From NCBI GenBank assembly GCA_028717265.1, contig JAQUOE010000009.1:1-48901 (forward strand): a stretch of 48,901 nucleotides of DNA. The letters run 5' to 3'. Below the pieces are notes generated by a model. The model ran no database searches, was not told the origin of the DNA, and saw only the letters and a list, made by a program, of their open reading frames with translations. This DNA comes from Actinomycetota bacterium (GTDB taxonomy: Bacteria; Actinomycetota; Humimicrobiia; Humimicrobiales; Humimicrobiaceae). Shown piece by piece: positions 573-12,307 of this stretch. A program made the position numbers and the translations under genes. The first letter of the stretch is position 1, and each line of letters begins with the position of its first letter.

Positions 573-3080
573 ATGAAAACATACAGTCTGAATGGCGAAT
601 GGAAGATGAAAAATACCGGGAACAAGCATTGGGAAAATGGCCGTGTTCCAGGTTCTGTTTTCACGGATTTATTGCGAAATGGATTGATGGAAGATCCATT
701 TTACAGAGATAACGAAGACAGAGCTCTTGCACTTTCATACAATGATTTCGAATATGCAAGAGAATTTGAGATTAGCGGTGATTTATTAAAACATGATAAG
801 GTATTTCTATATTGTGATGGTCTGGACACTCTTACGGAAATAAAAATAAATAATAAGTTAATAGCCAGAACCAATAATATGCACCGCCGTTATGAATTTG
901 ATGTAAAAGATACTTTACGGGAAGGCAGCAATAATATTCATATCATATTTTTTTCTCCTACCCGTTACATTGAGAAAATGCAGAAAAAATTACCGCTTAT
1001 AAGGAGAATGAATGATATGGTAATCGATGGTTTTTATCATATCCGTAAAGCTCATAGTATGTTTGGATGGGATTGGGGACCAAAGATTCCGGATTCGGGT
1101 ATATGGAGAAATATTGGTTTAAGGTTCTTTAATGATGCGCGTTTAAAGGATATATATATAAGTCAGAACCATAAAAAGGATAAGGTCAGACTGGATGTCC
1201 GGATAAATTATGAAGTCTGGAAACATGGGGAGTTTGATCTGGAGGTTCTATTGATTTCTCCTGACAGCAAAAAAATCTGCAAAACGCAGCCAATTGATCA
1301 CCAGGGGAATAATTGCAGTATCAGCATTGAGATCGATGAACCGGAGCTCTGGTGGCCCAATGGTTACGGAAGGCAGCCTATTTATAGAGTTTCCGTAAAT
1401 TTAAAGAGTGGAAATATAATACTTGACTCAAGAGGAATCAGTACCGGTTTAAGGACTTTGACTGTAAGGCAAAAAAAAGATAGATGGGGCGAATCCTTTG
1501 AGTTTGTAGTAAATGGCTTACCGATTTTTGCACGTGGAGCGAACTATATAATAGAAGACAATCTGATGTCGGGATATTCGCGTATGCGAACCGAAAGATT
1601 GATTAAGGATTGTATTGAAGCACATTTCAATTGTATTCGTGTCTGGGGCGGAGGCATATATCCGGATGATTATTTTTTTGATCTATGTGACGAGTACGGT
1701 ATCATTATATGGCAGGATCTCATGTTTGCATGTTCAGTATATCCTGCAGATAAAGAATTTATAAGTAATGTAGAACAGGAATTAACGGATAACATTAAAA
1801 GAATAAGAAATCACCCGTGTCTGGGTTTGTGGTGTGGAAACAATGAGGTGGAATGGATAGTGGATATGGTAGAAAAACACTCTTTCCCCTCGGTACAAAT
1901 TCCTGGAGACGAATCATCACCTTCCATGAAAGAAACCAGGAAAACGTATACCCGGTTATTTGAAAAAATAATCCCGGAAATAGTAAAAAAATATGATCCG
2001 GATCGTTTTTACTGGCCTTCATCACCATCATCGGGTGGGAAGTTTGATAGACCGAATGACGAAGATAGGGGTGATGTGCATTACTGGGATGTGTGGCACG
2101 GCATGAAATCCATTGACGATTACCGTAACCATTATTTTCGTTTTACTTCGGAATTTGGTTTTCAGTCATTTCCAGGAATAAAAACAATAGAGAGTTTTAC
2201 AGCACCAGAGGATAGAAACATATTTTCGTATGTGATGGAAAAGCATCAAAAAAATGGAACGGCAAATGGGAGAATAATGACCTATCTTTCGGATACATTT
2301 AAATATCCAGTGGATTTTGAGTCCCTGCTTTATGCGACACAGCTTTTGCAGGCCGAAGCTGTAAAATACGGCGTTGAACATTGGAGAAGAAACAGGGGAC
2401 GCTGTATGGGTTCGCTGTACTGGCAGCTTAATGACTGCTGGCCCGTGGCTTCATGGGCAAGTATCGATTATTATGGACGCTGGAAGGCTCTCCATTATTA
2501 CGCGAAGCGCTTTTATTCACCTGTTTTAATATCCTGTTTTGAGCAAGGAACGAAGGTGAATATTCATGTCACCAATGATACAACTGAATATATCAAGAGT
2601 GTAATTGAATGGAAGTTAAGGGACAATGGTGCCGGTGTCATATTTGAAGATGAAAAAGATGTGGGGGTGGGACCATTAAAAACTAAAAAATGCCTCACAC
2701 TGGATTTAAAAAATATGGTAAGTAAAGAAAATATAAGAAATGTTTATCTTGAATTCTTTCTAAATATCAAAGGGGAAATTGTGAGTAGCGGAACATTATT
2801 ATTTGTGAAACCTAAATACTTTAGTTTTTTAAATCCTGAAATGAAGATATCTGTAAATGAAGTCAGGGACCAATTTATTATTACACTAAAAAGCTGTGCT
2901 TATGCAAGATCTGTTAAACTTGATTTAATTAAAGCGGACTGCAAGTTCAGTGATAATTATTTTGATCTCTCTGCGGGGTATATAAAAGAAGTCATAATAG
3001 ATAAGTCCAGCCTATCGTGTGAACTGAATATAAATGGAATAAGAGAACAGTTAAAGGTCCGGAGTCTTTATGATATTTAG
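573..3080 (+). CDS. Beta-mannosidase, GH2 family, cytoplasmic
   Basis: An 835-residue GH2 exo-glycosidase that removes terminal beta-linked mannose from oligosaccharides. The N-terminal sugar-binding domain carries the beta-mannosidase signature PGSVFTDLLRNGLMEDPFY (about 26-44). HSMFGWDWGPKIPDSGIW follows at about 161-178, and the TIM barrel starts near residue 300. The acid/base Glu is E425 in WCGNNEVEW and the nucleophile is E527 in RFTSEFGFQSFP. RVWGGGIYPDDYFFDLCDE and MGSLYWQLNDCWPVASWAS are further family blocks. There is no signal peptide, so it should act in the cytoplasm on sugars imported by the ABC transporter that follows. Length is normal for the family. It starts at ATG with a weak GAGG upstream. 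Specificity for mannose rather than another beta-glycoside is inferred from the signature blocks. Confidence 0.92.
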   Translation: MKTYSLNGEWKMKNTGNKHWENGRVPGSVFTDLLRNGLMEDPFYRDNEDRALALSYNDFEYAREFEISGDLLKHDKVFLYCDGLDTLTEIKINNKLIARTNNMHRRYEFDVKDTLREGSNNIHIIFFSPTRYIEKMQKKLPLIRRMNDMVIDGFYHIRKAHSMFGWDWGPKIPDSGIWRNIGLRFFNDARLKDIYISQNHKKDKVRLDVRINYEVWKHGEFDLEVLLISPDSKKICKTQPIDHQGNNCSISIEIDEPELWWPNGYGRQPIYRVSVNLKSGNIILDSRGISTGLRTLTVRQKKDRWGESFEFVVNGLPIFARGANYIIEDNLMSGYSRMRTERLIKDCIEAHFNCIRVWGGGIYPDDYFFDLCDEYGIIIWQDLMFACSVYPADKEFISNVEQELTDNIKRIRNHPCLGLWCGNNEVEWIVDMVEKHSFPSVQIPGDESSPSMKETRKTYTRLFEKIIPEIVKKYDPDRFYWPSSPSSGGKFDRPNDEDRGDVHYWDVWHGMKSIDDYRNHYFRFTSEFGFQSFPGIKTIESFTAPEDRNIFSYVMEKHQKNGTANGRIMTYLSDTFKYPVDFESLLYATQLLQAEAVKYGVEHWRRNRGRCMGSLYWQLNDCWPVASWASIDYYGRWKALHYYAKRFYSPVLISCFEQGTKVNIHVTNDTTEYIKSVIEWKLRDNGAGVIFEDEKDVGVGPLKTKKCLTLDLKNMVSKENIRNVYLEFFLNIKGEIVSSGTLLFVKPKYFSFLNPEMKISVNEVRDQFIITLKSCAYARSVKLDLIKADCKFSDNYFDLSAGYIKEVIIDKSSLSCELNINGIREQLKVRSLYDI

Positions 3081-3351: not shown

Positions 3352-5154
3352 GTGAAAAAAGTATTTATATGGCTACTTGTTATATCAATGATTGTAGTTT
3401 TTTCTCTTGTAGGTTGTAAAGAAGAAGCTGCAGCAGAAGAAGAAGAAGAAATGGCAGAAGAAGAAGTAGCAGAAGAAGAAGAAATGGCAGAAGAAGAAGC
3501 GGCACCGCTGGATATTCCATTAGGTTTTAGTTATGATCCAGCTATGGCTGCTGCAATTCTTGCCGATGCCGGATACGTTGATACAGACGGTGACGGACTT
3601 GTAGAGGCACCTGATGGTTCCAAGATTGAGCTTACTGTTACATGCCCGTTTGGATGGACAGACTGGATGGAAGCTATCAGTGTTATAAGTTCGAGTGCAA
3701 TGGAATCAGGTATCAATCTTGTGGCTGAAACTCCTGATTACGGAGCATGGAACACTGCACTTATGGACGGTACATTCAATGCTACCTTAAATAACTGGGC
3801 ATCACTGAGCAACACTCCATGGACGTTATACAATCTTTTATTCAGGCACCCGATCGTAGATTTGATGCAAAGCGGTAACTTTGGTAGATATGAAAATCAG
3901 GAAATATTTGATTTGGTTGATCAGCTTGCTGCAACTCAAACTGACGATATTGCTGGAATGCAGGATATATGCGGACAAATTCAAACAACCATGTTAACAG
4001 AGATGCCGATGATCCCGCTCTGGTACAATGGTTTGTGGTCTCAGTGGAACGATTCGGTCTGGTCAAATTGGCCTTCATCTGCAGAAGATGCTCCTAAGAG
4101 TCTTCCTACTTCATGGTCAGGTTACTGGCAGCTGGGTGGTTTGACAACCCTTGCTAACTTAGAGCCAGTAGAAGGTGTTGAAGCAGGAACAGGTACTTAT
4201 GCACGAAATGAAACACTATATATGAGTGGTGCAGCATGGGGTGCATTTTCAGACTTGAACCCGTTCTTACCTGGTACCAAAGCAAATTCAACAGGAACGA
4301 TAGGACTTCTGTATGAATCACTGTTCCAGTATGATCCTCTGACAAATGAAATGACACCGTTCCTTGCTGAAAGTGGAGAATGGACAGATGATAGTACTTA
4401 TGTAGTTAAAATAAGAGATGGAATAAAGTGGACTGACGGCCAGACACTTGATGCAAATGATGTTAAATTCACCTTTGAGCTTGGCCAGACATATCCCGGA
4501 GGAATATGGTATGCTCCTATGTGGGATTATCTGGATAGCATTGACCTGGTTGATGATTTAACACTTCAGTTTAACTTTACAGCACCTCTCTATCAGGAGT
4601 TCTCAAACAACCTGTACAATATCTTTATAGTTCCGGAACACATCTGGGCTTCCAGAACAGAAGAAGAGATAACAGCAGGAATAAATGAGAACCCGGTTGG
4701 TTCAGGTGCGTATGAGTGGGATGCCGCCGGTGTAGGTCCGGATAGAAATGTATGGACCAAGAACAATGATTGGTGGGCAATAGATGCGCTCGGTATGGAT
4801 GTTGCTCCAAATAAAATTGTTGATATCAGATTCTCAAGCAACAACGTTGCTCTCGGTTCGATTCTAAAAGGTGAAGTTGATCTTTCAAATAACTTCTTAC
4901 CAGGTGTTGCAGAGCTGGTAAATAAGGGTTATGTCAAATCTTACTTCCCAGAAGCTCCTTATATGCTATCTGCTAACACAGCTGTTCTATTTTTGAACAC
5001 AACTATAGCACCGATGAACGATGCAGCTTTCAGAAGAGCATTAGCTTTCGCTATTAATACAGGTGACATAGTCAATGTTGCTTATGCTAATCTGGTTAAG
5101 GCTGCTGATCCAAGTGGTTTACTCCCGAGCCTATCTACATTTAATAATTATTAA
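3352..5154 (+). CDS. Oligosaccharide-type ABC transporter binding lipoprotein (SBP_bac_5) with circularly permuted halves
   Basis: A 600-residue substrate-binding lipoprotein, starting at GTG after AAAAGGAGG. The signal peptide ends in a lipobox with Cys at residue 22. An almost purely Glu/Ala/Met linker follows (23-51). The rest is a family 5 binding protein in the wrong order. Residues about 56-275 are what is normally the C-terminal half: GFSYDPAMAAAILADAGY, the DTDGDG loop, GWTDWMEAI, MPMIPLWYNG, and GYWQLGGLTTLANLEP, normally the end of the protein. After a short Gly/Ala linker, residues about 285-600 are the normal N-terminal half: RNETLYMSGAAWGAFSDLNP, IRDGIKWTDGQTLDANDVKF, NPVGSGAYEWD, and FRRALAFAINTGDIV near the end. 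The new termini, LPSLSTFNNY and LGFSYDPA, would adjoin in the usual order. Close unpermuted relatives feed Opp-type oligosaccharide transporters, for example for mannobiose in Thermotoga. The ligand here is probably a beta-mannoside or beta-glucan oligosaccharide, by context. Confidence 0.85.
   Translation: MKKVFIWLLVISMIVVFSLVGCKEEAAAEEEEEMAEEEVAEEEEMAEEEAAPLDIPLGFSYDPAMAAAILADAGYVDTDGDGLVEAPDGSKIELTVTCPFGWTDWMEAISVISSSAMESGINLVAETPDYGAWNTALMDGTFNATLNNWASLSNTPWTLYNLLFRHPIVDLMQSGNFGRYENQEIFDLVDQLAATQTDDIAGMQDICGQIQTTMLTEMPMIPLWYNGLWSQWNDSVWSNWPSSAEDAPKSLPTSWSGYWQLGGLTTLANLEPVEGVEAGTGTYARNETLYMSGAAWGAFSDLNPFLPGTKANSTGTIGLLYESLFQYDPLTNEMTPFLAESGEWTDDSTYVVKIRDGIKWTDGQTLDANDVKFTFELGQTYPGGIWYAPMWDYLDSIDLVDDLTLQFNFTAPLYQEFSNNLYNIFIVPEHIWASRTEEEITAGINENPVGSGAYEWDAAGVGPDRNVWTKNNDWWAIDALGMDVAPNKIVDIRFSSNNVALGSILKGEVDLSNNFLPGVAELVNKGYVKSYFPEAPYMLSANTAVLFLNTTIAPMNDAAFRRALAFAINTGDIVNVAYANLVKAADPSGLLPSLSTFNNY
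3418..3503 (+). repeat. GAA-rich imperfect repeat coding a poly-Glu linker
   Basis: Runs of GAAGAAGAAG separated by ATGGCA or GTAGCA encode the acidic linker after the lipobox. A unit of about 27 bases, GAAGAAGAAATGGCAGAAGA plus GAAGAAG, occurs twice. Such triplet repeats are prone to slippage, so linker length may vary between strains. Confidence 0.7.
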
Positions 5155-5192: not shown

Positions 5193-5230
5193 CGCCCCTC
5201 CTACTAATAGCGGGAGGGGCGATATTTTTA
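5193..5230 (+). terminator. GC-rich hairpin between binding-protein and permease genes
   Basis: CGCCCCTCC and GGAGGGGCG form a perfect 9-bp stem around an 11-base loop, followed by ATATTTTTAT. This is a rho-independent terminator or mRNA-stabilising hairpin with a short T tract. Such elements commonly sit after binding-protein genes, so that the binding protein is made in excess over the membrane components by partial read-through. Confidence 0.7.
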
Positions 5231-5256: not shown

Positions 5257-6249
5257 GTGAGACGTTATTTCGGGAGAAAGATAGTCGTTTACCTGTCTAC
5301 GTTTTTTTTAGCCGTGACTATAGACTGGGCAATCCCGAGATTCATGCCAGGTAATCCTATTTTGAATCTGCTGACAAGGGTTGCGGGGCGTCCTGAGACT
5401 GTTCAACATATGTATAATTATTATTCAAGAATATTTGGATTGGATATACCTGTCTGGAAGCAATATATTAATTTCTGGATTGCCCTTTTTCATGGCGACC
5501 TCGGAACAAGTGTACTCATGTTTCCCCAGAAAGTAACAGCAATAATTATGAGAGCAGTACCCTATGATATATTCCTCCTGGTACCGGCAATACTGCTGAG
5601 TTTCTATGCGGGAAATAAATTCGGTGCCTTTGCAGCAAGAACTAAATGGCTTGATAACACGGTGCTGCCACTTGGATATATGCTCACGGCGACACCATAT
5701 ATGTGGCTGGGTATCTTACTCGCCTGGTCGCTGGGAATTGTGGCAGGTATTTTTCCCATAGCAGGTGCATACGGCTTTAATTTACAACCTTCACTATCAT
5801 GGGTTTTTATATTAAGTTTATTGGAACACTGGTTTTTACCTTTTGTTTCTCTGTTTTTAGTTTATTTTGGTGGTTGGGCAATTGGAATGAGAAATATGAT
5901 TATTTACGAGCTTGAAGCTGATTATTCTCATTATCTGGAAGCTCTGGGAGCACCCAGAAGCCTGGTCAGAAAATATGCATATAGAAATGCGATACTACCT
6001 CAAATTACAGGACTGGCACTCCAGCTTGGCGTAGTTGTGGCAGGAGCACTGGTTACAGAAGTTGTTTTTTCATATCCCGGTATAGGATACTGGATTTTAC
6101 AGGCTATTCAGAATCAGGATTATTTTCTCATACAGGGATGTTTTCTCTTCATTATAATTATGGTACTAATTGCTAATTTCATAATTGACATTGTTTATGT
6201 CATTGTAGATCCAAGAACACGGTTGGGAATGGTAGGTGGATCAGCATGA
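5257..6249 (+). CDS. Opp/Dpp-type ABC transporter permease (DppB-like)
   Basis: A 330-residue inner-membrane permease of the DppB/OppB family, first of two in this transporter. It starts at GTG six bases after a perfect AAGGAGG. The N-terminal segment (about 8-30) is the usual first membrane helix before a large extracytoplasmic loop. The loop includes PRFMPGNPIL and FGLDIPVWKQYINF, typical of the family. Four or five more hydrophobic segments follow. The cytoplasmic coupling loop that contacts the ATPase is near EADYSHYLEALGAPRSLVRKYAYRNAILP (split here at YLEALGAP, about 228-235). VVFSYPGIGYWILQAIQNQD is the conserved C-terminal block. The stop overlaps the next permease start by four bases, ATGA, implying translational coupling. 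Confidence 0.93.
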   Translation: MRRYFGRKIVVYLSTFFLAVTIDWAIPRFMPGNPILNLLTRVAGRPETVQHMYNYYSRIFGLDIPVWKQYINFWIALFHGDLGTSVLMFPQKVTAIIMRAVPYDIFLLVPAILLSFYAGNKFGAFAARTKWLDNTVLPLGYMLTATPYMWLGILLAWSLGIVAGIFPIAGAYGFNLQPSLSWVFILSLLEHWFLPFVSLFLVYFGGWAIGMRNMIIYELEADYSHYLEALGAPRSLVRKYAYRNAILPQITGLALQLGVVVAGALVTEVVFSYPGIGYWILQAIQNQDYFLIQGCFLFIIIMVLIANFIIDIVYVIVDPRTRLGMVGGSA

Positions 6250-7154
6250 CAGAACAAATCAATATCGAAAAATCGGAAAGAATGGATAAAGTTCCGGTTA
6301 AAAAACAAAAGAAAGTAAATGAATTCATTTACTTTGCTATAAGAAATAATAAATTAAAAATTGGACTAGGTATTGTTCTTCTCTTTATTTTACTTGCACT
6401 TATCGGTCCTTTATTTGCGAAATATGACTGGAATGCTTACATAGGTCCGATGTCGCAGCCACCCTCAAGAGAATTCTGGTTTGGTACCACGACATTCGGG
6501 CAGGATGTTTATACTCAGTTTGTACTGGGTCTGAGGGCAACGTTCCTTGTAGGTATTATTGGTGGTGGGCTCGGTACTCTTATAGGAATTATTATTGGTT
6601 TTGTCGCCGGTTATCGTGGAGGTATTGTGGATGAGGTATTGAATGTATTGACCAATGTAGTTCTTGTCATTCCGACATTTGCATTACTTCTAATAGTAGC
6701 GGCTTATCTTAAGGTCAGAGGTATTATGATCGAAAGTATTTTTATTGGACTGACCGCCTGGCCATGGGCGGCAAGGGCAATCAGGGCTCAGACTTTTTCA
6801 TTGCGTTCCAGAGATTTTGTTGATTTGGCCCGGATGAGCGGAATGAAACCCTTAAAGATTATTTTTACGGAAATCGCACCAAACATGATGTCTTATCTTC
6901 TTATGACATTTATCCTCCAGTTTGGAGGTGCAATACTTATTGCAGCTACACTTGATTTTATTGGACTTGGTCCGACAAATACAATTTCACTTGGTCTTAT
7001 GATGAACTATGCGGTTATGTGGGGAGCACTCCAGTTTGGTAACTGGTGGTGGTTCGTGCCGCCAGGCTTTGCCATAATGGCAATCGTAGGATCTTTATAT
7101 ATTATGAATGTTGGACTGGATGAAGTTTTTAATCCCAAATTGAGGGAGATGTGA
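6246..7154 (+). CDS. Opp/Dpp-type ABC transporter permease (DppC-like)
   Basis: The second permease, 302 residues, of the DppC/OppC family. A charged N-terminal stretch (1-33) precedes the first membrane helix (about 37-58). The extracytoplasmic part has the family motif FGTTTFGQDVYTQFVLGLRA, here about 79-98, followed by five further hydrophobic segments. The coupling loop is near RSRDFVDLARMSGMKPLKII. LDFIGLGPTNTISLGLMM is the conserved C-terminal block. It is translationally coupled to the upstream permease and only four bases separate its stop from the next ATPase gene. Together with the partner permease it forms the membrane channel. Confidence 0.93.
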   Translation: MTEQINIEKSERMDKVPVKKQKKVNEFIYFAIRNNKLKIGLGIVLLFILLALIGPLFAKYDWNAYIGPMSQPPSREFWFGTTTFGQDVYTQFVLGLRATFLVGIIGGGLGTLIGIIIGFVAGYRGGIVDEVLNVLTNVVLVIPTFALLLIVAAYLKVRGIMIESIFIGLTAWPWAARAIRAQTFSLRSRDFVDLARMSGMKPLKIIFTEIAPNMMSYLLMTFILQFGGAILIAATLDFIGLGPTNTISLGLMMNYAVMWGALQFGNWWWFVPPGFAIMAIVGSLYIMNVGLDEVFNPKLREM

Positions 7155-7158
7155 GAAA

Positions 7159-8121
7159 ATGAGTTTACAAACAAAAAATCTTAGAGTATATTACCAGACA
7201 CTCAGAGGGGATGTTAAAGCACTTGATGACGTGACATTCAACATCAAAGACGGAGAAATAATGGGGCTTGCAGGTGAATCGGGTTGCGGCAAGACCACAC
7301 TGGCCAATAGTATTATCTACTTAACCCCACCGATGAAATACATAGACGGCAGCGTTGAGCTTGATGGTGAAGAACTGCCAATCTGGGATATAGATTCAAT
7401 GAATACATTTAGATATAAAAAAGTATCTATAATACCGCAATATGCAATGAATGCCATGAATCCTACAAGAAAAATAGGAAAGATGACAGAAGAACTTTTA
7501 GTTTCAAAAAAGATCAGCTATAAAAAGACAAAAGCAGAATTAGATAGAAGATTGGACCTTGTGGAATTAAAAAACGATATACTGGGTATGTATCCCATAG
7601 AGCTTTCAGGCGGCATGAAGCAGAGAATGGTTCTTGTTCTTTCCACTTTACTTAATCCTTCATTGTTGATAGCGGATGAAATAACATCGGCACTTGATGT
7701 TTCCACCCAGAAAGCTGTTGCAGAGATGCTGGTTGAATTCAGGAATCGAAAAATTGTTAAAAGTATGATAGTCATTACACATGATATTTCAATACTTTAC
7801 CAGATAGCGGATAGTATTCTTGTAATGTATGCCGGAAAATTAGCAGAAAAAGCGTCTACTGAAGTGATAATTCATTCGCCCATGCATCCTTACACCAGGC
7901 TTTTGATTTCATCACTTCCAAAAGTAGGGGTAAAATATTCCGAAAAAAAGTTAACAGGGATTAAAGGAAATACGCCATTGTTATTTAATCCTCCGGTTGG
8001 ATGCCGTTTTAAGGATAGATGTCCTGTCGCATTTGATAAATGCATAAAAGAGCCGCCGTTTATTGAAATTGAAAAAGGCCATTTTGTTGCCTGCTGGAGG
8101 GAGTGTGAGAGGAATGCTTAA
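7159..8121 (+). CDS. Opp/Dpp-type ABC transporter ATPase (DppD-like)
   Basis: A 320-residue ABC ATPase, one of two in the importer. Walker A is GESGCGKT at 39-46, the signature LSGGMKQR is near 152-159, and Walker B is LLIADEI with the catalytic Glu, followed by ALDVSTQ (D-loop) and the switch His in ITHD. The C-terminal oligopeptide/sugar-transporter extension has the four conserved Cys, CRFKDRCPVAFDKC plus a later C before W. In related Dpp and Opp ATPases these can bind an iron-sulphur cluster. It starts at ATG after GAGATGTGAGAAA. Its last eight bases overlap the likely start of the second ATPase gene. Confidence 0.93.
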   Translation: MSLQTKNLRVYYQTLRGDVKALDDVTFNIKDGEIMGLAGESGCGKTTLANSIIYLTPPMKYIDGSVELDGEELPIWDIDSMNTFRYKKVSIIPQYAMNAMNPTRKIGKMTEELLVSKKISYKKTKAELDRRLDLVELKNDILGMYPIELSGGMKQRMVLVLSTLLNPSLLIADEITSALDVSTQKAVAEMLVEFRNRKIVKSMIVITHDISILYQIADSILVMYAGKLAEKASTEVIIHSPMHPYTRLLISSLPKVGVKYSEKKLTGIKGNTPLLFNPPVGCRFKDRCPVAFDKCIKEPPFIEIEKGHFVACWRECERNA

Positions 8122-9064
8122 ACTTGATAAGATATCAAAGGTTTATAGTACAGGAACATTCGGAGGGAAGCTTCTCCCTGCCGTAGTTGATGTCAGTTTC
8201 GATATCGGAGAAGGAGAAGTTGTTTCGTTGATTGGCGAAAGCGGGAGCGGAAAAAGTACAATAGGGAAAATGATCCTGCGCTTGATCACTATTTCTTCCG
8301 GAAAGATTATATTTAACGGAATTGATATCTCTACTTTTAAAAAAAATACGCTCAAAAGCTATTATAAGGAAGTTCAGGGTGTATTCCAGGATCCGTTCAG
8401 TTCTTACAATCCTATTTTTAAAGCCGACAAAATTTTTACAATAATAAGACAGGAATTTTTTCCAAAGATGAAAGATAAAGAGTGGGAAGAAAAGGTGGAT
8501 AGTTCACTTAAAGCTGTTGGTCTGAATCCCGATCAGGTATTGAATAAATTTCCTCACCAGTTAAGCGGGGGCCAGCTTCAGCGTTTTCTTATAGCCCGTG
8601 CATTGCTGCTGGACATTAAATTTCTGGTAGCAGACGAGATTATAAGTATGCTTGATGCATCTACACGCGTAGATGTTCTAAATTTACTGGCAGAGTTAAA
8701 ATCCCGGGGTCTATCCATACTTTTTATAACTCATGATCTATCGCTTGGCTATTATATAAGCGAAAAAGCAATAATACTTTACAGGGGAAGCGTCGTGGAA
8801 ATGGGCAACACAGAAAAAGTATATTCTAATTCACTTCATCCATATACAAAAATGCTCATGGCTTCAGTACCGCGTTTGGACAAAAAATGGGAAGAAGTAG
8901 AAGTGGAACTTAAAGCAAAACAAATAGAAAACACTATCGGTTGCGTTTATTATGATAGATGCCGTGTTCCTGATAAAGACGCAGGTTGTGCCGGAAGCAG
9001 ACCGCCGTTGATAAAGGTGGAACAGGATCATTTTGTGGCATGCAAGCATTGCATGAAAGAATGA
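8114..9064 (+). CDS. Opp/Dpp-type ABC transporter ATPase (DppF-like)
   Basis: The partner ABC ATPase, 316 residues. I chose the ATG that begins MLKLDKISKVY because homologues begin there and a purine-rich GGAGGGAGTGTGAGAGG precedes it. A longer in-frame form from 8063 would add 17 residues with no family counterpart. Walker A is GESGSGKST at 41-49, the signature is LSGGQLQRF, Walker B is FLVADEI, and the switch is ITHD. In the segment DEIISMLDAST the usual Ser-Ala before LDAS is replaced by Ser-Met, a mild variation. The C-terminal extension has Cys-containing YYDRCRVPDKDAGC. It is the last gene of the transporter operon, since a strong terminator follows. Confidence 0.92.
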   Translation: MLKLDKISKVYSTGTFGGKLLPAVVDVSFDIGEGEVVSLIGESGSGKSTIGKMILRLITISSGKIIFNGIDISTFKKNTLKSYYKEVQGVFQDPFSSYNPIFKADKIFTIIRQEFFPKMKDKEWEEKVDSSLKAVGLNPDQVLNKFPHQLSGGQLQRFLIARALLLDIKFLVADEIISMLDASTRVDVLNLLAELKSRGLSILFITHDLSLGYYISEKAIILYRGSVVEMGNTEKVYSNSLHPYTKMLMASVPRLDKKWEEVEVELKAKQIENTIGCVYYDRCRVPDKDAGCAGSRPPLIKVEQDHFVACKHCMKE

Positions 9065-9217: not shown

Positions 9218-10018
9218 ATGACAAAAAATGATAAAGAAACGATAATAGTCCAGATTTCCGATATTCATGTTGGCGAACAACATTTCGTGCCAAGTCTTCT
9301 TACAAGATGTATTGACGAAATAAATGAACTTTGTCCCGATATAGTAATCATAACCGGAGATCTTACTGCCAATGGATTCAGGATGGAATATGATACCGTA
9401 AAAAATTATCTCTCCCCCATAAAGTGCACAAACATACTGATTCAATTGGGTAATCATGATTCCAGAAATGTGGGATATCTGCATTTTGAGGATATTTTTG
9501 GTGACAGATATATTTCGTTTAATAATAACAAAGTATCGATTGTCGCAGCTGATTCAAGCGAACCGGATCTGGATAATGGGCAGATCGGCCGTGAGCACTA
9601 TGACTGGATCAAGAACGAGTTTAGCAAATGTGATAATAATAGTTTTAAAATCTTTGCCATGCATCATCACCTGGTGCCGGTTCCCAATACCGGAAGAGAA
9701 AGGAATATTGTAAATGATGCCGGTGATGTTTTAGAAACAGTAATCGATGCCGGAGTAGACATGGTATTATGCGGTCACAAACATGTGCCATATCTGTGGA
9801 GAATAGAGGATATGCTGGTGGTTACTGCCGGGACAGTTTCCTGTCTCAGATTAAGAGGTAAGATCGAACCAAGCTATAATATTATTTATGTAAGAGAGAA
9901 GGAAATTGATATTTACAGGAGGTCTCCTTTCGATAAGATTGAGAAAATTATCGGTGTAAGCAGAAAAGAGAAAAAGAGCAAAATCTATGATAAGTTTATT
10001 AAAGAAAAAAAGCAATAA
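9218..10018 (+). CDS. Calcineurin-like metallophosphoesterase (CpdA-like), candidate partner of cyclic-DPG pathway
   Basis: A 266-residue cytoplasmic metallophosphoesterase. All five metal-binding blocks of the calcineurin-like fold are present: D15-I-H17, G47-D48, G78-NHD, H149-HH, and G186-HKH. The overall order matches the cyclic nucleotide phosphodiesterase (CpdA/Rv0805) group, in which two metal ions hydrolyse phosphodiesters. The start has a good GAGGGTGA six bases before ATG. The last 32 bases overlap the 5' end of cyclic 2,3-diphosphoglycerate synthetase, which suggests co-translation and a linked role. It could open the cyclic trianion or act on an unrelated phosphodiester. The substrate is not visible from sequence, so that link is inference. 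Confidence 0.85.
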   Translation: MTKNDKETIIVQISDIHVGEQHFVPSLLTRCIDEINELCPDIVIITGDLTANGFRMEYDTVKNYLSPIKCTNILIQLGNHDSRNVGYLHFEDIFGDRYISFNNNKVSIVAADSSEPDLDNGQIGREHYDWIKNEFSKCDNNSFKIFAMHHHLVPVPNTGRERNIVNDAGDVLETVIDAGVDMVLCGHKHVPYLWRIEDMLVVTAGTVSCLRLRGKIEPSYNIIYVREKEIDIYRRSPFDKIEKIIGVSRKEKKSKIYDKFIKEKKQ

Positions 10019-11354
10019 AGATAAAAACTTAATTGCATTGATAGATGGGGAACATTACCCGCAGGTGACCAATGATGCGATCAAGATGCTTAAGAAGATC
10101 TATAAAGGTGATTTTAAAGGAATGATTTTTCTTGGAGGAACAGAAAAACTGGTAATAGATGATATTGAAGATTTCTTTAAGGAAAAAGTTTATATAATCA
10201 AAGATATCGATCTGGATTTCAATAAGGCACTTAAATATTTTAATCCGGATATTGTATATGATTTAAGTGACGAACCTGTGGTCAATCATATAAAAAGAAT
10301 GAAAATCGCTTCTTATTGCTTTGCGAATAAATGCAGCTATATGGGTCCTGATTTTTTATTTTCTTACGAGAATGAAGATATATATTGTAAAAAATTTACA
10401 TTATCTATTATAGGAACCGGCAAAAGAATAGGTAAAACAGCAGTAAGTTCTTATGTGACTAAAATATACACAGGGGAAGGTATCGATGTCTGCGTCATAG
10501 CTATGGGCAGAGGAGGACCTGAGACTCCTGAGATAATCAGGGGTGGTAAAATAGATATTACTTCCCGCTACCTTCTTGAAATCAGTAATAAAGGAATGCA
10601 TGCAAGTTCGGATTACATAGAAGACGCTCTTACAAGTAAGATTACCACCATAGGCTGCAGAAGATGCGGCGGAGGTTTCGGGGGTAAGATTTTTATGTCA
10701 AATATCAAAGAAGGAATAAAAATTGCAGAGAAGCTGAATCCCGATCTTGTAATAGTCGAGGGAAGCGGTGCCTCTGTGCCTGATGTCAAAACGGATGCTG
10801 TTATTTGTGTAGTGGGCGCTTACCAGGATTGGGAAGCGGTTGTAGGCTACCTGGGAATTTATAGAATATTATCTGCTGATCTCATAATACTTACCATGTG
10901 TGAAGAACCGGTGGCAAGCCAGGAGAAAATAGCCAATGTTAAAATAGAAATAAAAAAAATAAATCCAGATTCCATGATCATGGAAACTATCTTCAGACCT
11001 CAACCTTTATCGGATATAACCGGTAAAAAGATTTTTATGGGGATGACTTCAGATAAAATTATTGAACCTGTGATCAAAAATTATATGGAAAATAACTTTA
11101 ACTGCAGGGTCAAAAAAATAAGTTTTAATCTGGGGAATAGAGCTGCTCTTAAAAAAGATCTGGAAAAAACAAAGGATTATGACACGATAGTAACTGAACT
11201 CAAAGCGGCTTCTGTGGATATTTTAACGGACTATGCTTTCAGGCACAGGAAAGAAATAATCTATATGAATAACGTACTCATCGTAAAGGGCAGGAAGGGA
11301 GTGCTGGAAGCAGAATTGAAAAAGATATTTTCAGGGGGAGAAAAACTTTTATGA
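9987..11354 (+). CDS. cpgS: Cyclic 2,3-diphosphoglycerate synthetase
   Basis: A 455-residue protein I recognise as cyclic 2,3-diphosphoglycerate synthetase. The enzyme uses ATP to form the intramolecular phosphoanhydride of 2,3-diphosphoglycerate. The N-terminal part begins KNLIALIDGEHYPQVTNDAI, typical of the family, with IYKGDFKGMIFLGGTEKL just after. The central nucleotide-binding segment has a P-loop, GTGKRIGKT (143-151). MGRGGPETPEII, CRRCGGGFGGK and VIVEGSGASVPDV follow, all family blocks. The preceding gene overlaps it by 32 bases and the following 2-phosphoglycerate kinase by four bases (ATGA). That gives the two pathway enzymes adjacent and in one transcript. The best-studied enzymes are archaeal (Methanothermus fervidus); the surrounding genes here are clearly bacterial. 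Confidence 0.9.
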   Translation: MISLLKKKSNKDKNLIALIDGEHYPQVTNDAIKMLKKIYKGDFKGMIFLGGTEKLVIDDIEDFFKEKVYIIKDIDLDFNKALKYFNPDIVYDLSDEPVVNHIKRMKIASYCFANKCSYMGPDFLFSYENEDIYCKKFTLSIIGTGKRIGKTAVSSYVTKIYTGEGIDVCVIAMGRGGPETPEIIRGGKIDITSRYLLEISNKGMHASSDYIEDALTSKITTIGCRRCGGGFGGKIFMSNIKEGIKIAEKLNPDLVIVEGSGASVPDVKTDAVICVVGAYQDWEAVVGYLGIYRILSADLIILTMCEEPVASQEKIANVKIEIKKINPDSMIMETIFRPQPLSDITGKKIFMGMTSDKIIEPVIKNYMENNFNCRVKKISFNLGNRAALKKDLEKTKDYDTIVTELKAASVDILTDYAFRHRKEIIYMNNVLIVKGRKGVLEAELKKIFSGGEKLL

Positions 11355-12307
11355 TTTTAAAAAGTGAAGATGAGACGAATTCAAAAGTAATAGTAATTTC
11401 CGATAAAAAAGGCGGACTGCCTTTTTCAAAAGGGATACTTGCTTCTTCTATTTCAGTAGCGGGCCTTGATATCCTGACCGCTCATAAAATCGCATTTGAG
11501 ATTCAGGATTATTTTTTAAAGAATAAAATCTATTCGATATCTCTTGAAGAATTAAGATCGCTTGTATTCAGATTCATAAAAGATAAAGTAAATCTGGAAT
11601 ATGCCGAAAGATATTTGCTGTGGCAATCCGTGGGTAAACTTAAAAAACCGATCGTAATACTTATCGGAGGATCAACCGGAGTAGGGAAATCGACTATAGC
11701 TACTGTACTTGCCAATAGATTAAATATTACCAGGGTAGCTTCTACTGATGCTATAAGAGAGGTCATGAGAGCTTCCGTATCAGAAAAATTAATAAGGCCC
11801 CTGAGAGGATCTTCTTATAATGCGTATAGGAATTTAACACTTCCTCCTTCCGGTGTGGAGCCTGTTATTCTGGGTTTCAGGGAACAGGTACTCGCGGTCA
11901 GCATTGGGATAGAGGCGATAATAAAGAGAAATATTGAAGAAAAATCAGATATTATTATAGAGGGTGCGCATGTGGTACCGGGATATCTCGATCTTGGGAA
12001 TTATTTATCCACAGCAATAATACAGCAGATAGTCATATCGGTACCGGATATAAGTATTCATAAAGAACATTTTACAAAAAGAACCTTTGAAACACAGGGT
12101 TCAAGACCCATGGACAGGTACATAAAGCACCTTGATAAAATCGTAATGATTCAGGATTATATAGAGAAACTGGCCAAAGAGAAAAATATCAGAATTATAG
12201 AAAACTATAATCTTGATAACGTGGTAAATGAAATATTGGAACTGGTATTTCAAAGAATAAAAAGCGAATTCAGTAAAGTAGGTTCCGAGTATTCTAAAGA
12301 GAATTAG
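11351..12307 (+). CDS. 2-phosphoglycerate kinase
   Basis: A 318-residue kinase that phosphorylates 2-phosphoglycerate to 2,3-diphosphoglycerate, the first step towards the cyclic compound. An N-terminal ATP-cone-like domain (about 12-90: VIVISDKKGGLPFSKGILAS, then TAHKIAFEIQDYF) precedes the kinase domain. The kinase P-loop is GGSTGVGKS at 106-114, followed by RVASTDAIREVMR, the usual substrate-side block of this family. IEGAHVVPGYLDL is a further conserved segment. Start and upstream stop overlap as ATGA, and the SD is CAGGGGGAGAAA. The stop overlaps by four bases the stop of a convergent minus-strand gene. Archaeal 2-phosphoglycerate kinases have a similar length and domain order. Confidence 0.9.
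   Translation: MILKSEDETNSKVIVISDKKGGLPFSKGILASSISVAGLDILTAHKIAFEIQDYFLKNKIYSISLEELRSLVFRFIKDKVNLEYAERYLLWQSVGKLKKPIVILIGGSTGVGKSTIATVLANRLNITRVASTDAIREVMRASVSEKLIRPLRGSSYNAYRNLTLPPSGVEPVILGFREQVLAVSIGIEAIIKRNIEEKSDIIIEGAHVVPGYLDLGNYLSTAIIQQIVISVPDISIHKEHFTKRTFETQGSRPMDRYIKHLDKIVMIQDYIEKLAKEKNIRIIENYNLDNVVNEILELVFQRIKSEFSKVGSEYSKEN

Follow-up and report, generated by a model that had tools for sequence, protein, structure and literature searches.

Does the gene at 3352–5154 of the window (the whole stretch of 48,901 nucleotides of Actinomycetota DNA that was analysed) encode a natural circular permutation of a family 5 solute-binding protein, and does its product serve a working importer? The reading favoured here, with a probability of roughly 0.85, is a permuted cluster C lipoprotein that would have originated by tandem fusion, would carry its anchor on domain III and would act in an importer.

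The gene and its product

The open reading frame for the SBP_bac_5 lipoprotein (3352–5154, forward strand, as are its parts and the neighbouring importer and mannosidase genes described below) has a GTG start, a ribosome-binding site reading AAAGGAGG and no internal stops, and encodes 600 amino acids. Pfam SBP_bac_5 (PF00496) matches residues 333–593 on profile positions 1–250 with 182.4 bits against a cut-off of 32.4. Its sequence places the protein among the solute-binding lipoproteins of family 5 (SBP_bac_5, cluster C). Assignment to cluster Bc, the TpMglB-2 type with a type I (cluster B) fold and MglB homology, was rejected, the strong matches all being to cluster C family 5 proteins.

The protein begins with a lipoprotein signal peptide and lipobox (residues 1–22, 3352–3417, ending FSLVG before Cys22). 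The lipobox LVGC at residues 19–22 is a putative export and lipidation signal, and LLLAGC in L009, the protein of a relative, matches its position. An acidic, Glu-rich tether (residues 23–56, 3418–3519) leads from the lipid anchor to the fold and is disordered in the model. The usual C-terminal part follows (residues 57–272, 3520–4167, LGFSYDP to LEP), as delimited by phmmer and a tblastn order test. A junction linker (residues 273–282, 4168–4197), near-identical in two relatives, then connects the old C-terminus to the old N-terminus, and the usual N-terminal part, placed second, extends to the stop codon (residues 283–600, 4198–5154, YARNETLY to LPSLSTFNNY; phmmer and Pfam). The same type of signal peptide and Glu-rich tether recurs at six other loci of the same genome (G000:C11, C3, C30, C23, C25 and C59) and resembles a standard leader module of exported lipoproteins.

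Order of the two parts and their junctions

In a phmmer search of the PDB, residues 282–593 align with residues 2–308 of 4pft (307 bits) and residues 57–271 with residues 323–536 of the same chain (178.5 bits). These two inverted stretches on a single TM1223 chain span nearly the whole mature window protein. The canonical N-to-C order of SBP_bac_5 is not followed, the C part preceding the N part both by phmmer and in the tblastn order test. The window protein is homologous to SBP_bac_5 by descent and is a permuted variant rather than an ordinary member. The evidence supports a natural circular permutation carried by a single, apparently working gene. The initial annotation had placed the usual C-terminal half first, and this order is borne out by the inverted placement of both parts on one normal-order chain and by the two relatives.

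The linker, which had been described as a short Gly/Ala segment, is in fact acidic/Gly/Thr in composition, reading VEGVEAGTGT in the window and VEGVEPGTGT in both relatives. It joins the C tail LEPVE to the N head GTGTYARNETLY. At this junction of the old termini the tail of the normal C part (LEPVPPSE in L053, the nearest normal-order relative found) continues into the head of the normal N part (ATYARGETLY in L042); the resulting sequence is LEPVEGVEAGTGTYARNETLY, and no signal peptide is left over between them.

At the site of the permuted protein's two ends L053 has an intact loop, AKYVDQAVVDELGFSYDP, and reads LPSLAKYVDQAVVDELGFSYDP across the cut; the permuted protein ends with LPSLSTFNNY and begins with LDIPLGFSYDP. 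In normal-order proteins block 1 (the usual C part) starts 24 bases past the end of block 2 at most loci. Approximately eight residues (VDQAVVDE in L053) are lost or replaced at the cut, mainly the short helix 372–378 of the L053 model. The cut does sit in the loop, as had been proposed, but it is not perfectly clean, since about eight residues of the normal loop, including this helix, are missing or replaced. The C-terminal ends of the three permuted proteins are nearly level (LPSLSTFNNY in the window, MPHLSDFIMVK and MPHLSDFIIVK in the relatives).

Predicted structure and position of the lipid anchor

The AlphaFold2 model of the permuted protein was built from an input alignment of the permuted proteins together with separate half-fragments of normal-order relatives. 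It has a pLDDT of 86.3 and a pTM of 0.83, and the model of the normal-order control L053 has values of 83.4 and 0.82. Only the leader and tether (residues 13–53) of the permuted model fall under a pLDDT of 50, and the residues of the junction linker are modelled at a pLDDT of approximately 82–86. A complete bilobed cluster C fold is confidently predicted. The best structural match found by Foldseek is TM1223 bound to mannobiose or mannohexaose. Foldseek alignments preserve sequence order; the L053 control aligns to 1vr5 over 543 columns (1.5 Å, TMq 0.87), whereas the permuted model aligns in one block only, of 308 columns (1.3 Å, TMq 0.50). This one-block match, set against the full-length match of the control, is the signature of a permutation that leaves local structure unchanged. 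Both parts combined cover nearly all of TM1223.

In VcCBP, domain I (Upper1) is formed from residues 1–35, 140–239 and 489 to the end, and domain III (Lower) from residues 240–488 (PMC10667598). The new ends of the permuted protein map to approximately residues 290–320 of the Vibrio proteins, within domain III, and the old ends map to Upper1 (domain I); the lipid anchor would therefore have moved to the other lobe. A shift of the anchor had been claimed in the initial annotation and is supported by this mapping of old and new termini onto the cluster C domain boundaries. In the proposed arrangement the short linker would bridge the old ends, which both belong to domain I, a helical connector of domain III would hold the new ends, and the lipid anchor with its acidic tether would hang from domain III, the lower lobe, rather than from domain I. 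The sugar cleft between the lobes would retain its residues, and the protein would still close on the sugar and hand it to the permeases. By alignment ends and offset, W102, D104 and W255 may correspond to the VcCBP ligand residues W362, D364 and W512.

Permutation has been suggested as an adaptation to membrane tethering (PMC4990184). Close normal-order relatives such as L053, like the permuted protein, have a lipobox and a long tether, and tethering alone therefore does not explain the permutation. That the permutation was adaptive, moving the tether from domain I to domain III, giving the protein a new orientation towards the membrane and the permeases and becoming fixed across genera, is a doubtful proposition; if true, cluster C importers would have gained a new geometry of tethering.

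Recurrence in relatives and selection

A search of related genomes for the permuted order found it in two genomes of another genus of the same family (G022 and G008), giving three genomes of two genera with shared linker and ends. The G022 protein aligns with residues 1–597 without a break at 73% identity, and the G008 protein with residues 77–597 at 75% identity. Because the contig of G008 starts within the gene, two genomes show the junction between leader and C part, whereas all three show the internal junction. At the DNA level the window is approximately 73% identical to the two contigs, which come from one low-coverage metagenome (5.6x and 6.3x). No close normal-order homologue is present in 40 genomes of the window's class, nor is a close normal-order copy found in the window's own genome. 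Both grounds for rejection set out in the initial annotation, assembly from two neighbouring genes and a normal-order homologue with matching junctions in near relatives, fail in view of the recurrence in independent contigs and of this absence. Further permuted members were found neither in 397 genomes of the window's phylum, nor in 400 genomes of the phylum of G398 and L053, nor in a collection of 84,980 species at the sensitivity of two conserved 7-mers, and viral contigs yielded no permuted homologue. The distribution is patchy (3 of 35 genomes of the family and 1 of 7 in the window's own genus), and loss or horizontal transfer must therefore have occurred.

Between L009 and L010, the proteins of the two relatives, the Nei–Gojobori method gives a dN of 0.0174 and a dS of 0.548, a dN/dS of approximately 0.03 that is similar in both parts. 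The window and L009 differ by a dN of 0.195 and a dS of 1.36, the latter near saturation. Of 113 columns that are at least 95% invariant across 38 normal-order proteins, 108 are kept in the window. By these measures the permuted gene is under strong purifying selection in both parts, which agrees with the earlier view that the gene architecture looks like a working one. Its occurrence in related bacteria and its maintenance under selection mark the arrangement as real and not as a sequencing error.

Ancestry and route of origin

A scan of 84,980 species genomes gave 49 related loci, two of which are the G022 and G008 contigs themselves. Normal order is found in 46 database loci, and all of the remaining loci that the tblastn order test resolved are of this order. 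They belong mostly to Chloroflexota and Bipolaricaulota, with a few from Thermotogota and archaea. The highest identity to a normal-order protein is to L053, at 68% in the N part and 73% in the C part. Trees of the N part, of the C part and of both re-joined group the three permuted proteins with one another (SH-aLRT 99 and 93 for the parts; 100/99 for the combined tree). In each tree this trio lies inside the same 18-row clade with the Chloroflexota protein L053 as the nearest normal-order row. The agreement between the N-part and C-part trees indicates that one parental lineage supplied both blocks. The junctions fit a route on which a normal-order gene would have been duplicated or fused in frame (leader-N-C-N-C) and would then have lost its first N part and its last C part. 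Remnants of these outer parts were looked for in the flanking DNA and none was found (best match at E 0.12, on the wrong strand), nor was any intermediate of the duplication route.

Operon, hairpin and likely substrate

Downstream of the permuted gene lie ABC permease 1 (5257–6249; BPD_transp_1, DppB/OppB type), ABC permease 2 (6246–7154; BPD_transp_1 and OppC_N), ABC ATPase 1 (7159–8121) and ABC ATPase 2 (8063–9064), both ATPases with ABC_tran and oligo_HPY matches in Pfam, from which all four assignments derive. The listed TTG start of ATPase 2 is probably too far upstream, the real start lying further downstream (MLKLDKIS in the window); an overlap of the two ATPase reading frames is also present in L038, the permuted locus of G022, and in L053. 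The order of the two permeases and two Opp-type ATPases is identical in the window, in G022 and in the normal-order L053. Within the family, a close homologue of permease 1 is restricted to the three genomes that have the permuted gene.

Between the binding-protein gene and that of permease 1 lies a GC-rich stem–loop (5193–5221, −21.7 kcal/mol, z −4.2) with arms CGCCCCUCC and GGGAGGGGCG. It was missed by a consensus terminator scan because of the scan's loop limit of 8, and was found by folding. Equivalent hairpins occur at 2163–2272 of L038 (permuted) and at 7627–7729 of L053 (normal order). The hairpin possibly stabilizes or attenuates the message so as to give an excess of binding protein. 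Its presence in all three operons suggests that the permuted gene occupies the original place in the operon.

A GH2 β-mannosidase-type glycosidase gene (573–3080; Pfam Glyco_hydro_2_N2, Mannosidase_ig and Ig_mannosidase) adjoins the permuted operon on its upstream side in the window, and a homologue lies beside the one in G022. The neighbours of the L053 operon are a gene of the GH130 β-1,4-mannooligosaccharide phosphorylase family and an epimerase-family gene. From homology and gene neighbourhood, the permuted protein most likely captures β-1,4-manno-oligosaccharides as the binding subunit of an Opp-type ABC importer.

Alternative explanations

A misjoining of neighbouring binding-protein genes, or of a collapsed tandem repeat, during assembly or binning might mimic a permutation, and the three permuted genomes are indeed draft assemblies of tens to hundreds of contigs, two of them sharing the low-coverage metagenome. 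Yet the internal junction and the 3′ end recur in three separate contigs and the leader junction in two, the linker is conserved across the three permuted genes, the flanking operon genes are intact in two independent contigs, and the window genome lacks a close normal-order copy that could have contributed to a chimera. The probability of such an artefact is negligible, an assembly chimera being ruled out in practice by the independent recurrence in other contigs. Bacterial family 5 genes often lie in tandem, and the halves of two different paralogous binding proteins could have been fused, an event that is nevertheless highly improbable here. For TpMglB-2 such an origin of the permuted part has been considered (PMC4990184). 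For the window protein, however, the trees of the two parts agree on the same clade and on L053 as the nearest normal-order row, to which the parts show similar identities (see above), and on the strength of these congruent trees a fusion of two paralogues is rejected.

With its anchor moved, the protein would face the permease differently, and a sensor or decoy, degraded or without a transport role, might have been kept after permutation broke delivery. This is improbable: the gene is the first of an intact five-gene operon in both the window and G022, the hairpin is as in the normal-order operon, a dN/dS of about 0.03 goes together with retention of family-invariant residues, and the genome has no other close homologue to serve the permeases. 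It is also conceivable, though unlikely, that the ligand of the permuted protein is a different one, for instance a cello-, gluco- or laminari-oligosaccharide; the window has a GH16 fragment at 68–478, and the homologues include the cellobiose-binding protein 2o7i and chitin-oligosaccharide-binding proteins. Against this, the closest structures are those of TM1223 and TM1226 with mannobiose or mannohexaose bound, and mannosidase-type GH2 enzymes adjoin the operon at two permuted loci, as GH130 and epimerase-family genes adjoin that of L053. Uptake of manno-oligosaccharides by a permuted binding protein remains the preferred reading.

Relation to known proteins

TM1223 and TM1226 of Thermotoga maritima (4pft, 4pfy, 1vr5 and 4pfu) are manno-oligosaccharide-binding SBP_bac_5 proteins that share family, fold and the GWTD motif with the window protein; they run from N part to C part, whereas the window protein runs from C part to N part. 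Identity to TM1223 is approximately 49% in the Foldseek match, and the ligand of the window protein is presumably also of sugar type. The nearest normal-order relatives found are Chloroflexota and Bipolaricaulota orthologues such as L053, with the same operon layout including the hairpin.

A natural permutation has been described in TpMglB-2 (Tp0684) of Treponema pallidum, which binds glucose, is proposed as ‘Type Ic/Cluster Bc’ and has homologues in other treponemes and in Gram-positive bacteria (PMC4990184). Like the window protein it is a membrane-tethered, naturally permuted sugar-binding protein of an ABC importer, but its fold is of Type I (cluster B) and that of the window protein of cluster C. 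The permuted segment of TpMglB-2 is only approximately 13% identical to the canonical one, too diverged to prove a common origin, in contrast to approximately 70% for the parts of the window protein. The permuted imelysin-like protein PIBO of Bacteroides is likewise a natural permutation, related to nutrient uptake and with close unpermuted relatives (PMC3143127); it is all-helical and, unlike the window protein, does not belong to the solute-binding proteins of ABC importers. In the literature searched, mostly open-access, no permuted family 5 or cluster C protein was found to be described, only cluster B or engineered cases. The novelty claimed for the permutation therefore holds within family 5 but not for solute-binding proteins as a whole, a permuted one being already known in cluster B.

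It is rare for a natural circular permutation to have close unpermuted orthologues in an operon of the same type. As both parts are approximately 70% identical to a normal-order relative, the rearrangement can be followed nearly at the level of single residues. The locus offers a natural test of which cluster C lobe needs anchoring for delivery to the permease, and, for biosensor design, a useful example of where such a protein can be split and joined in living cells. Automated annotation would label the permuted protein as an ordinary SBP_bac_5 member, and more such proteins may therefore be hidden.

Other features of the window

The GH16 (β-glucanase family) fragment at 68–478 is a C-terminal one, lies upstream of the mannosidase gene and is probably cut by the start of the contig. 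Further downstream, 11351–12307 encodes a 2-phosphoglycerate kinase-like protein (304.9 bits, under the NCBIfam cut-off of 343). The open reading frame at 9987–11354, which is without an NCBIfam match, overlaps this gene on its upstream side and may encode a cyclic 2,3-diphosphoglycerate synthetase partner; the pair would be unusual for a bacterium.
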